Assembly (NCBI GenBank): GCA_018823135.1
Contig: JAHJJF010000064.1
Location: 1 to 60,346 of the forward strand
Length of the DNA: 60,346 nucleotides
Source of the DNA: Pseudomonadota bacterium
GTDB lineage: Bacteria > Desulfobacterota > Desulfobulbia > Desulfobulbales > CALZHT01
Direction of reading: 5' to 3'
Each line of letters opens with the position of its first letter. Positions within the stretch are counted from its first letter, which is position 1. Shown here in pieces: positions 20,985-33,033 of the stretch. The notes under the pieces are model-generated. The model was not told the DNA's origin, made no database searches, and was given only the letters and a program-made list of their open reading frames with translations. Position numbers and translations under genes: made by a program.

Positions 20985-21668
20985 ATGGACAAACGACCCG
21001 CCAAAACCGCATGCATCCACAGATCTGCAGCTCTGGCCATGAATGATACATACTTCCGCGCAATCACCGAAACCACCAGCGACATGATCCATCTCAACGA
21101 TTCCCAGGGGCGAATCGTTTATGCTAACCCGGCAACCGAAAGAATTCTCGGGTACTCTCCTGAGGAAATCAAAAACATACCTGCCCTGGACCTCATCCAC
21201 CCGGATGACCAGGAAATAATCAAAGAAGATATGGGCCAGGCATTATCAGGAAAAGATGTGGCTCCCAGGGATATCCGCCTGCTTCACAAAAACGCCCACT
21301 TTATTGCCATAGAAGCCCGAGGCTTTATTGTGCCTTTAAAGGCTGAAGAGTTCTATATCGGGGCTATTCTTCGCGATATCCGCGCCCGCAAACAAACGGA
21401 AAGACAGCTTGAATCCTATCGCCTGGACCTTGAAGAATTAGTCAAAGAGCGGACCAGCGAATTGCATTCGGCCCTTGATGAAGTACACACCTTACGGGAA
21501 ATCCTGCCCATCTGCTCTTACTGTAAAAAAATCAGGGATGATCAAGGATTCTGGAAGCAGGTTGAGGTCTATTTGAGAGAACATTCGCAGATGGATTTTT
21601 CCCACGGGATCTGTCCGGAATGCGTTACTGAACATTATCCGGATATTGACATAATTGACGAAGATTAA
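20985..21668 (+). CDS. PAS-domain protein with C-terminal CxxC...CxxC module
   Basis: 227-aa soluble sensor without kinase or GGDEF output. A PAS domain covers about 20-132 (FRAITETTSDMIHL, ERILGYSPEEI, HPDDQEII). A coiled-coil linker (about 135-172, with ELVKERTSELHSALDE) leads into a compact tail with Cys177, Cys180, Cys210 and Cys213 (LPICSYCKKIRDD, GICPEC). The same tail ends the sensor at 31888-33033. The tail may bind zinc or sense redox state; this is inference. It is divergent from the pirin gene and apparently monocistronic. Confidence 0.82.
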   Translation: MDKRPAKTACIHRSAALAMNDTYFRAITETTSDMIHLNDSQGRIVYANPATERILGYSPEEIKNIPALDLIHPDDQEIIKEDMGQALSGKDVAPRDIRLLHKNAHFIAIEARGFIVPLKAEEFYIGAILRDIRARKQTERQLESYRLDLEELVKERTSELHSALDEVHTLREILPICSYCKKIRDDQGFWKQVEVYLREHSQMDFSHGICPECVTEHYPDIDIIDED

Positions 21669-21705: not shown

Positions 21706-22020
21706 TTATTTCTTTTTTTTTCGGAGTTTATTCATCAACGAAAGGGTTACTTCAAAACTATCGAAATTTTCCTTGATAACCAGTTTATAAAAATCACATT
21801 CCTTGCAGGTGTCATATTTCCTGGCAAATAAACCCTGAACCTTGCCACCGCAAAAGGTACCTGCAACAACCCAGCATGCCCGCCCGGCGTTGATGCCGCC
21901 GTGAACGCCATCAAGTCTCTTTTCAGTCGCAGCGGCGCAGACGCCCAGCTCGGAGGCTTTTGCTCCTCCCGATTCACGACCGCATTTTTTAAACTCCCAG
22001 CAATTACTTTTCTTGTCCAT
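21706..22020 (-). CDS. Two-CW-domain small cysteine-rich protein
   Basis: 104 aa. Two Cys-Trp centres, NCWEFKKCG and ACWVVAGTFCGG, plus GVCAAA and a final CKECDFY, give the pattern of the two-CW family found in anaerobic Desulfobacterota. The domain often occurs as a tail on sensors; here it stands alone with a lysine-rich C-terminus. Function unknown, probably metal or redox related. The frame extends three bases to a TTG, but the ATG at 22018-22020 is preferred. It lies downstream of the bacteriohemerythrin gene on the same strand. Confidence 0.72.
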   Translation of the reverse strand: MDKKSNCWEFKKCGRESGGAKASELGVCAAATEKRLDGVHGGINAGRACWVVAGTFCGGKVQGLFARKYDTCKECDFYKLVIKENFDSFEVTLSLMNKLRKKKK

Positions 22021-22128
22021 CAAATAGCCTCAAAAATATTATTATTCAAAAAGTAATCTTTACTATTAGCCCAGTATTACACAAAATAAAAGCACAATTA
22101 AGCCGCAGCGTTCCTCAAAAAAAATACA

Positions 22129-22590
22129 TTACTTCTTCCGGGCCATTTTTTTTGACATATGGTCGGCATATTGCTTGTCAGCCTGCATGATATGCTTGAC
22201 ATACCAGTTGACGATATACTCATTGATCCCCCTGGCTTTATCGGCCAGTATTTTCGGATCAAGGTAATTAATGTTAATTTCGTGATAGGTCTTGAATATG
22301 TCCTCCTCCATATCCAGAATCTTTCGCACATATTCATTATGCTGGTTGATGTGATCAAAAAATCCCGGATAACTGTTGGCAAGCATCAGCTTTTCTTCCG
22401 TATGGAAATGGTAGAGGGCGTAGGCACGAAATTCCAGGATGACCTTTATAATTTTTGGCAGGTTTACCTTTCCTTGTTCCGACTTTTCAAGAAGTTGCGA
22501 AAGGCTGTCGTTTAATTCGAAAAAACCTTTATGCTGGTCATCAATGATCTTGAGATTCAGCCGATATTCGTCTCGCCAGAGATTTGCCAT
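22129..22590 (-). CDS. Bacteriohemerythrin
   Basis: Four-helix di-iron oxygen-binding protein, 153 aa, likely an oxygen carrier or sensor in the cytoplasm. All seven iron ligands can be placed: His20, His61, Glu65, His80, His84, His133 and Asp138. Spacing matches known hemerythrins except for a longer stretch between His84 and His133, about 13 residues more than in the Methylococcus-type protein. A strong GGAGG site precedes the ATG. An oxygen-handling protein fits an anaerobe exposed to air. Confidence 0.92.
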   Translation of the reverse strand: MANLWRDEYRLNLKIIDDQHKGFFELNDSLSQLLEKSEQGKVNLPKIIKVILEFRAYALYHFHTEEKLMLANSYPGFFDHINQHNEYVRKILDMEEDIFKTYHEININYLDPKILADKARGINEYIVNWYVKHIMQADKQYADHMSKKMARKK

Positions 22591-22896: not shown

Positions 22897-24045
22897 TCAG
22901 TTGAAATCCATTGACGGTACATCCTGCAGATATTTATGCAGCCTGGCTTCATCCGCTGGATTAATATCCATGAATTCCATGCCGGTCTTATATACATCTT
23001 CCACTGAATCATGTATCCGAACCACGCTGCCCTTGAGATTTATTATCTGCTCATTCAACCCAACTGCGACAATCAGGGATTGCCCAAGGGCAAAAGGCAT
23101 GAAGGTCTCCATCAGGACCCCTTTTTCACTGATATTGAGCGTCCGGCCCATGCCTCTGGTGACCGGATAATCCTGATCATCCAGCACAACAAACTCAAGC
23201 AGATTCAGGGTATCAAGCCGATCATAGCGCCGCAGTTTCGATTCAAAGGTGTTCTGATATGTCCTGTTGAAATCCTTGTCTGAAATACCGCAACTTTTAT
23301 AGAGAGCCAGCTGAATGAGCCAGTGGGAATAATCAGCTGCGGACAAGATATTGAGCAATTGCTGATGCTCGCTCACCGATGCCTGTTTAAGGAGCATGAT
23401 GACCCGCTGTATATACCACCTGATGGCCTCACTCCCTTCAAACAGGTGGCGATTCTGGATGGCGATAAATAGGTTCAGATAATTTCTGCCGTCCGTCCGC
23501 TGCTCTTTGCCCGGGGAAAAAGCACCGGCGATAAAGGAATGCGTAAGCTTGTCGCGCATATTTTTAAGCTTGACGATCTTCTGCCAGCCGGCATGGATCT
23601 TATTAATTTGAAAGCTGATGCCAAAAGTTTTGGCGAGAAGCACAGGTATGGTGCCCAACCGGTCAATAGCCGGCACCAGAGGCATTGTCGCGGTCATCAG
23701 GGTAGCGGTTTTACTATCGAGAAAACTTCTCTTTTCCGCAAGGAACTCGATTTCGATCTGCGAAAGCGGCTCCTTGATTCCAGGGGCGCCCGCGGTCTTT
23801 CTGTTGGCTTCAAGGGCTATAACCGCCAAAGCATTGGCCAGGGCTTCAAGAAAATTGAACTGCATGCTGATAATCGCGGTTCTCAAGGATTTATCAGGCA
23901 GGGACGGCAAATCCTTCTTACCGTTCTCTGTCTCCTTCTGCAAAAAAACCACCAGGTCTTTTATCTGGTTCGACAGATCGGCGAGCAATGATGATATGCA
24001 GCCGATAATATTCTTATAAGGAGTACGTGATTCATTTGCTGTCAT
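22897..24045 (-). CDS. Large PilZ-domain protein
   Basis: 382 aa. The last 110 residues form a PilZ domain with LRRYDRLD (fits RxxxR) and GRTLNISEKGVLMET (fits NxSxxG), so c-di-GMP binding is likely. The N-terminal 270 residues are helical, have no membrane segment and are not recognised; they contain a Lys-rich stretch around WQKIVKLKNMRDKLTHSFI. It may be an effector whose helical part binds a partner. No strong ribosome site was found before the ATG at 24043-24045. A non-coding stretch of about 500 bp lies upstream. Confidence 0.75.
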   Translation of the reverse strand: MTANESRTPYKNIIGCISSLLADLSNQIKDLVVFLQKETENGKKDLPSLPDKSLRTAIISMQFNFLEALANALAVIALEANRKTAGAPGIKEPLSQIEIEFLAEKRSFLDSKTATLMTATMPLVPAIDRLGTIPVLLAKTFGISFQINKIHAGWQKIVKLKNMRDKLTHSFIAGAFSPGKEQRTDGRNYLNLFIAIQNRHLFEGSEAIRWYIQRVIMLLKQASVSEHQQLLNILSAADYSHWLIQLALYKSCGISDKDFNRTYQNTFESKLRRYDRLDTLNLLEFVVLDDQDYPVTRGMGRTLNISEKGVLMETFMPFALGQSLIVAVGLNEQIINLKGSVVRIHDSVEDVYKTGMEFMDINPADEARLHKYLQDVPSMDFN

Positions 24046-31887: not shown

Positions 31888-33033
31888 ATGTCAATAAGCA
31901 CACGATTTTCCATCACCATAAGCAGCCTTTTTTTTGCCGCGGGAATTATTATTATTCTCCTGGTGAATTATCATATGCGCCACCAGGCCCTGATCGAGGC
32001 CGAATCAAAGGCAATGATAATTCTCAACCACAATCTTGCAATCCACTCCTTTTATTCCCATGAATTAAAGCCAAAGCTTTTTGAGTTTTCCGATCCTTTC
32101 AGGCCTGCTGAATATTTTGAACCTGCATGGATGTCCTCCACCTATGCAATCAGACAGATAACCAAATTATTCGAACCGATCTCCACCGAAGAATATTACT
32201 ATAAGGAATGCGCCATCAACGCTCGAAGCCCCTTAAATGAGGCGGACGCATTTGAAAAAGCCTTTATCTCCGAACTTAACAGCAAGCCCGAGCTTACAAA
32301 CCAGACAAGCATCCGGATAATCGATGAGGTCCCCTTCTTTGTAGTGTTACGCCGCGGCGAATCCATGGAGCAATCCTGCCTCAGATGTCACACCACTCCT
32401 GATCAGGCCCCGGCCGACCTGGTCAAATATTACGGTCCGGAAAGAAGTTTCAACCGGGAACTTGACGAAGTGGTTTCCGCGGTATCAATCAGGATACCCC
32501 TGGATCGTGCCTACGCAAATGCCAATAAGATTACTATCCAACTCGGCGCAATACTTCTCGGGGTTCTTTTCCTGCTGTATTTCCTGATCATTCAGATAAA
32601 TAAAAAACAGATCATCAAACCGATTCTGCGCATAAAAGATAAGGCTCTCAAAATCGCCAATAAAGAAACCCCGCTTGGCGAAGAAATCCCCCTTCCAGAC
32701 GGCAAAGAGCTTCAGGAGATGACAACCGCCTTCAATACCATGTCCAAAGAGTTGCGCCGCAACATGGACCAGCTTGAAGGAAAGGTGGCAGAACGCACCA
32801 AAGCTCTTCGGCAAGCCCTTGACAAGGTGAAAACCTTAAGCGGCTTCCTGCCCATCTGCGCATCATGTAAGAAAATCCGCGACGATAAAGGGTATTGGAA
32901 CCAGATTGAAACGTATGTCCGCGACCATTCGGAAGCGGAATTCAGTCACAGCATCTGCCCGGACTGTGCGCAGGAATTATATCCGGAATTTTACGATACG
33001 ATGTATCCCAAAAAAACCGATTCTGATACCTGA
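31888..33033 (+). CDS. Tll0287-like (DUF3365) haem sensor with HAMP and CxxC module
   Basis: 381-aa membrane sensor. The first membrane helix spans about 8-27. The extracytoplasmic DUF3365 domain (about 30-210) contains Cys164, Cys167 and His168 (SCLRCH), a c-type haem site. The second helix (about 216-236) is followed by a HAMP domain (about 237-290), a coiled coil (290-318) and the tail with Cys324, Cys327, Cys357 and Cys360 (LPICASCKKIRDD, SICPDC). There is no kinase, GGDEF or methyl-accepting domain. Haem-linked redox or gas sensing is inferred. The CxxC tail is the same as in the PAS protein at 20985-21668. Confidence 0.85.
   Translation: MSISTRFSITISSLFFAAGIIIILLVNYHMRHQALIEAESKAMIILNHNLAIHSFYSHELKPKLFEFSDPFRPAEYFEPAWMSSTYAIRQITKLFEPISTEEYYYKECAINARSPLNEADAFEKAFISELNSKPELTNQTSIRIIDEVPFFVVLRRGESMEQSCLRCHTTPDQAPADLVKYYGPERSFNRELDEVVSAVSIRIPLDRAYANANKITIQLGAILLGVLFLLYFLIIQINKKQIIKPILRIKDKALKIANKETPLGEEIPLPDGKELQEMTTAFNTMSKELRRNMDQLEGKVAERTKALRQALDKVKTLSGFLPICASCKKIRDDKGYWNQIETYVRDHSEAEFSHSICPDCAQELYPEFYDTMYPKKTDSDT

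Follow-up and report, generated by a model that had tools for sequence, protein, structure and literature searches.

The window, that is, the whole stretch of DNA that was analysed (60,346 nucleotides), contains two sensor genes whose products end in the same cysteine-bearing tail (Table 1). Both open reading frames (ORFs) are present where a sequence-only reading of this DNA had placed them, and its proposal of a common C-terminal CxxC...CxxC tail is borne out by BLASTP, in which the haem and PAS proteins align at their C-termini only, with 42 of 73 residues identical (58%, E 3e-29). The shared motifs are LPICASCKKIRDD and LPICSYCKKIRDD, with a helix ahead of each; the helix before the haem-protein motif is supported by an AlphaFold model. 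Both tails read LPIC-x2-CKKIRDD and, after the inner-cysteine spacer, CPxC. The spacer, earlier given as 30 residues, counts 29 (C327/C357 in the haem protein, C183/C213 in the PAS protein), as it does in 115 of 117 tails. Neither protein has a kinase, cyclase or MCP domain, as had been remarked; Pfam recognizes a Tll0287-like domain plus HAMP in the one and PAS in the other.

Table 1. The two module-bearing genes of the window and the features of their products
Feature	Position	Strand	Basis
Haem-Cache/HAMP sensor protein with module at its end, 381 aa	31888..33033	+	ORF; Pfam PF11845 + HAMP
Tll0287-like (sCache_heme) sensor domain, residues 32-204	31981..32499	+	Pfam PF11845, 1.6e-34
CXXCH haem-c motif, C164-H168, haem protein	32377..32391	+	read in translation
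HAMP domain, residues 240-290, haem protein	32605..32757	+	Pfam PF00672, 1.7e-6
Helical (coiled-coil) linker, haem protein	32758..32832	+	AlphaFold helix 2-24 of 92-aa model; axxdexx over 270 linkers
Four-Cys module core C324, C327, W337, H354, C357, C360, haem protein	32833..32991	+	alignments; model pLDDT 91
PAS protein with module at its end, 227 aa	20985..21668	+	ORF; TIGR00229
PAS domain, residues 21-142, PAS protein	21045..21410	+	NCBIfam TIGR00229, 1.5e-22
Helical linker, PAS protein; PAS D to Cys1 = 46 residues (4 mod 7, minority phase)	21411..21497	+	
Second window copy of module core	21498..21656	+	alignment

The haem protein is a member of the Tll0287-like (sCache_heme, DUF3365/Tll0287) family by its PF11845 score (119.8 bits vs a cut-off of 24.1) and its CXXCH motif, the latter being described as the defining feature of the family (PMC12889525, preprint). 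The same preprint reports NO-sensor properties for members fused to outputs, and that nearly half of the family stands alone. In the passages of it drawn upon here the outputs named are HK, MCP, GGDEF/EAL and cyclase, besides proteins that stand alone, and the tail described above is not among them. The window haem protein has the input of this family, CXXCH included, but ends in a tail that differs from the outputs so named, and some of the sCache_heme proteins counted as stand-alone may carry the same tail.

The PAS gene is adjoined by one for a stand-alone two-CW domain protein (21706-22023, minus strand; NF045718, 5e-33), a domain which also precedes the tail in locus L003 and GGDEF in L041. 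Nearby are genes for a hemerythrin-domain protein (22129-22590, minus strand; TIGR02481, 1.4e-22) and for a protein whose C-terminal part has a sub-threshold TIGR02266 match (22897-24045, minus strand; 1.5e-5) and is PilZ-like by eye.

The tail, hereafter the module, occurs ten times in the genome from which the window derives (E up to 0.01). Its contexts there, some of them labelled by eye, are a Tll0287-HAMP protein, a Tll0287-like CXXCH protein with two PAS-like regions, two PAS proteins, two two-CW proteins, a receiver, a membrane protein, a contig-end fragment and a coil-only protein. With every match taken, these ten tails have a mean identity of 52.2%. The module is also present in 16 of 18 related genomes and this, together with the ten copies, argues that the resemblance of the two window tails is not due to chance. 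It was found in 67 of 148 genomes sampled from the phylum (E up to 1e-6), with 22 copies in Desulfosarcina widdelii (complete chromosome, L084 = G172). A scan of a genome collection gave at least 576 confirmed module stretches out of 584. The best 80 of these at least 576 were kept, and their record titles name Desulfobacterota groups, Nitrospirae, Nitrospinae, KSB1, Acidobacteria, Spirochaetes, Chloroflexi, WOR-3, Verrucomicrobia, Zixibacteria, Hydrogenedentota, an anammox bacterium, Bacteroidetes, Ignavibacteria and Victivallales; single phylum labels may be wrong, because most of the records are metagenome bins.

All four cysteines are present in 271 of 272 tails, the exception (L104) having arginine in place of the third. 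Because of this retention the head of the module likely holds a metal, zinc being the candidate. Among 193 tails the other near-invariant residues are W (192), H (190), R16 (189), K13 (184), D19 (181) and E33 (177), and the charged residues K13, R16, D18, D19 and E33 are each kept in 169-189. Across 47 receiver proteins the mean pairwise identity is 59.7% for the module vs 27.6% for the receiver, a gap that is inflated because the loci were picked by tail score. AlphaFold2 returned a model of the 92-residue tail (pLDDT 88, pTM 0.52) and of the 56-residue core alone (pLDDT 91, pTM 0.60), in the order helix, knuckle, short hairpin, helix and then a helix beginning at the second CxxC. The modelled order agrees with that expected of a treble-clef zinc finger (knuckle, hairpin and a helix from the second CxxC), a fold that is a candidate for the module, but significant fold matches were lacking: Foldseek with either model gave nothing below E 2 (best 2.0), and a VIA fold search gave at best Z 2.0 (a RING domain) and nothing for the core alone, missing matches that exclude nothing.

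No Pfam or NCBIfam model covers the tail above its cut-off, the best sub-threshold matches of single tails being DUF3039 (0.015) and zf-C4pol (0.027). The PDB holds no sequence relatives by phmmer, and the best profile match there (E 0.077) lies among partial matches to unrelated proteins. The N-terminal zinc domain of ClpX (zf-C4_ClpX) shares the CxxC...CxxC pattern and its profile aligns weakly in register, but the profile-profile probability was just 13-16% (hhalign, 12.6-15.9%) and in Pfam, where two of the 10 tails matched with E 0.062 at best, the match stayed far under the gathering cut-off; homology to it is not supported. Nor is homology to the DksA finger (zf-dskA_traR), for which hhalign gave 11-36% out of register, with column-shuffled controls reaching 22%. 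Both zinc-domain profiles were built from relatives, that of DksA from 5 rows only. A description of the module was not found in open-access PMC text, a scope that leaves subscription papers outside, and neither the string LPICASCKKIRDD nor CKKIRDD occurs in the open-access PMC text searched.

The domains upstream of the tail, whose listing had been suggested from the window alone, proved to be diverse inputs: PAS, receiver, GAF, Cache, HAMP, MASE3 and propellers. Loci L001-L188, mostly picked for the best tail score or for the length of the ORF, supplied a first set of 193 unique ORFs with the tail; 192 are complete, the other extending past the edge of its locus. In-house profiles assigned 47 of the 193 to receiver proteins and 75 to PAS proteins lacking a receiver, and found neither domain in 71. 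Membrane helices are predicted, by a simple hydropathy rule, for 85 of the 193 proteins, and these 85 include no receiver protein. Of the 47 receivers, 46 keep the phospho-acceptor Asp and 44 the Lys. Pfam analysis of 88 full proteins gave PAS_9 (33), Response_reg (18), HAMP (8), GAF (5), Tll0287-like (4), Reg_prop (3), dCache (3), MASE3 (2), 7TMR-DISM (2) and VUPS (2). HisKA, HATPase_c, GGDEF and MCPsignal are absent from the 25 families listed of the 83 found in these 88 proteins, and single members with such domains exist, for example L033 (GGDEF).

In these sequences the module is nearly always C-terminal. The core is followed by at most 35 residues in 188 of 192 complete tails and in 77 of the 79 new tails of a second set, the remaining two having 36 and 50. 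It had been pointed out that a known output domain always following or adjoining the tail would speak against an output role; this is not what was seen, since more than 35 residues follow in only 4 of the 192. These are L033 (MASE3, module and, by eye, a GGDEF-family region without the GG[DE]EF motif), L103 (receiver, module and a 63-aa stretch read by eye as winged-helix-like, Pfam finding the receiver only), L149 (receiver, module, receiver, HATPase_c) and L154 (PAS, module, three GAF).

Sensors that carry the module have relatives with known outputs in its place. When only the haem sensor domain was used for the search, matches came from 19 of 28 relatives (E up to 1e-10); 30 Tll0287 loci were read, 7 of them, L191 included, with Pfam scans. 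The module ends the sensor in 2 of the 30, the window and L191 (sensor 57% identical). Other Tll0287 sensors end in HisKA/HATPase_c (L193 and L209, the latter with a further receiver), in HisKA cut at the locus edge (L190), in a Ser/Thr protein kinase (L196), in PAS only (L208) or in nothing (L211). A two-CW sensor is followed by the module in L003 and in L007 (below the family cut-off in L007) but by GGDEF in L041; the L003 and L041 proteins share 50% identity along 157 aa, reaching roughly to the junction. Since the same sensors have a kinase or GGDEF in that slot, the module stands where outputs stand. Tail-less Tll0287 sensors of ~295-330 aa, which stop shortly past the HAMP region (L201-L207, L211, L212, L214-L216; in L211 Pfam finds Tll0287-like, with HAMP below cut-off), occur alongside sensors that do have the tail, L191 for example.

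The spacing of module and sensor was measured from a landmark at the sensor end to the first module cysteine (Cys1). An exploratory count showed steps of seven. This was written as a rule, before new data were taken, and applied to a held-out set of 80 further places yielding the 79 new unique tails; it held at 18 of 18 landmarks of the PAS type (D[IV][TS]) and at 11 of 12 of the receiver type (KP). In a later count, with landmarks placed by profile on all 272 tails, the distance from the PAS Asp to Cys1 was divisible by 7 in 91 of 101 cases (70/79 in the first set, 21/22 in the second). The exceptions lie at 24, 31, 32, 40 and 53 (one each), 46 (two, the window PAS protein among them) and 74 (three). 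Linkers of 32, 46, 53 and 74 (L108, L004, L034, L018, L269, L024, L045) share the minority phase of 4 mod 7 and perhaps represent a coiled-coil stutter; an ERT segment occurs in several of them. Receivers were counted at distances of up to 80 residues, 17 farther away being left out. From the receiver Lys to Cys1 there are 27, 34, 41, 48, 55 or 69 residues (6 mod 7) in 36 of 50. Another 13 are at 0 mod 7 (42 in L127, L149, L306 and L323; 49 in L020, L027, L052, L078, L116, L151, L153, L165 and L266), and all of these have a KG/KQ/KE/KA/KN loop replacing KP, so that in this subgroup the linker phase is offset by one residue with the steps of 7 retained. The two phases account for 49 of the 50, the single misfit being at 58.

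Because shared ancestry could explain such a pattern, a tree was built from receiver domains only. On this tree of 48 domains at least 17 length changes are needed in one parsimonious reconstruction, and 15 of the 17 are multiples of 7 (binomial chance 2e-11 at 1/7). The effect is lost when landmarks deeper within the sensor domains are taken: there the largest mod-7 class holds 0.19-0.39 of the cases, compared with 0.77 for receivers and 0.91 for PAS when measured from the domain end. The linker itself carries an axxdexx repeat, with L-17 in 234, A-14 in 211, L-13 in 207, V/I-10 in 243 and L-7 in 259 of 270. The distance counts cover PAS and receiver linkers; the window haem protein is HAMP-coupled. 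For Rec-GGDEF enzymes, too, linkers are reported to vary in length by whole multiples of 7, and an axxdexx repeat is described as switching register (PMC8041772). Rec-GGDEF and PAS-GGDEF diguanylate cyclases resemble the module proteins in sensor types, 7-residue linker steps and axxdexx last heptads. By this likeness of linkers the module is coupled to its sensors in the manner of catalytic outputs, although unlike the GGDEF enzymes it comprises only ~45 residues with four cysteines and no recognised catalytic domain.

The sequence-only reading had offered the tail as either an uncharacterised output or a metal/redox relay into which sensors plug. The former part is well supported by the diverse inputs, the C-terminal position, the exchange with kinase and GGDEF and the heptad coupling; of the latter, the metal is likely, and the redox relay has the cysteines to speak for it. 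We think it fairly probable that the tail is a free-standing, coiled-coil-driven, four-cysteine output head which binds a common partner. A sensor, presumably dimeric (PAS, receiver, GAF, Cache/HAMP, MASE3 or others), would run on into a parallel coiled coil bearing the ~45-residue head, held by a metal, probably zinc, through the two CxxC knuckles. A stimulus, or phosphorylation of the receiver, might then alter the geometry of the coil, whether its register or its rotation, in the way that Rec-GGDEF enzymes do, and the re-posing of both heads could expose or hide a conserved surface. That surface would bind one common cellular partner encoded away from the sensor genes. No conserved operon partner was seen among 60 operon-like neighbours (HATPase_c 8, Response_reg 8, the rest mixed), which were scanned out of 71, the other 11 being short or doubtful ORFs; the search for co-occurring partners that had been suggested along with the tail gave no recurring gene in the 60. 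Set against the output reading are this absence of a recurring neighbour, the lack of a significant fold match and the 10 of 101 PAS linkers that are out of step, that of the window PAS protein included. GGDEF occurs in 145 of 148 genomes and is therefore uninformative on a c-di-GMP partner. Whether receptors and response regulators of many phyla converge through this head on a single conserved hub, as a further general class of bacterial output, is a more tentative matter, the balance lying somewhat against it.

Heptad stepping speaks for coupling rather than for activity, because a purely structural dimer cap also needs heptad phase. A passive cap or clamp, symmetric on the dimer, would predict the same steps, and it would sit well with the four proteins that have further domains beyond the module (L033, L103, L149, L154). 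Yet most of the proteins would then be without any output, 188 of 192 ending at the module while 46 of 47 receivers keep their phosphorylation residues, and the retention of the charged residues exceeds the needs of a clamp; we regard such a cap as improbable. That the four thiolates form an additional input, a C-terminal redox or zinc sensor which is oxidised or demetallated under stress and acts on the far end of the coil, seems to us rather unlikely. The near invariance of the four cysteines, and of a histidine just ahead of the second knuckle, would suit it, as would the frequency of the module in anaerobe-rich groups (by the record titles of the best 80 of at least 576 stretches), but no other output is there for it to modulate, and coupling to receivers and PAS in heptads better fits a reader of helices.

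Zinc fingers often bind nucleic acids, and such binding has been proposed for the archaeal HalOD2 domain (PMC5847659), so that the module proteins might be regulators of transcription or RNA. Against this speak the net charge of the core, which averages -1.1 and is neutral or negative in 152 of 193, and the predicted membrane helix of 85 proteins; a nucleic-acid role appears distinctly doubtful. The chemotaxis array is a hardly credible destination for the tail as a receptor tip. MCPsignal was matched in 63 of 67 tail-positive vs 56 of 81 tail-negative genomes (raw counts compared by eye, with genome size uncontrolled), but four tail-positive genomes that are 93-100% complete (G018, G035, G068, G150) have no MCPsignal match, and a chemoreceptor array is therefore not required.

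Returning to the output head, its nearest counterparts in kind are perhaps HalOD2 and TackOD1, outputs of archaeal receivers which are described as cysteine-rich, predicted to bind zinc, C-terminal to receivers and obscure in function (PMC5847659). By that description HalOD2 is set apart by a CXXC spacing of 20-25 and its occurrence in only a few halobacteria, as against 29 and many bacterial phyla and sensor types for the module, and TackOD1 by 11 cysteines as against four. To domain catalogues the module-tailed proteins, of which one genome may hold up to 22, look as though they had no output. The module looks like a coiled-coil-driven output domain and so a still uncatalogued way of passing signals on. 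Were it an output, current maps would lack an entire signalling layer of sulfate reducers and further environmental bacteria, and this layer would include haem-Cache proteins, whose family is reported to sense NO (PMC12889525, preprint).

Phage records gave no match to the module, and plasmid records a single partial one (L219, 3001-3138) on Dongshaea marina plasmid NZ_CP028898.1, where it lies in unannotated DNA flanked by transposase genes of IS21 and IS91. An Ignavibacteriae bin (L152, G165:C85:5000-21108) has consecutive module genes for products of 736, 548, 1197 and 1068 aa, a tandem expansion, and the run also includes tail ORFs of 53 and 137 aa.
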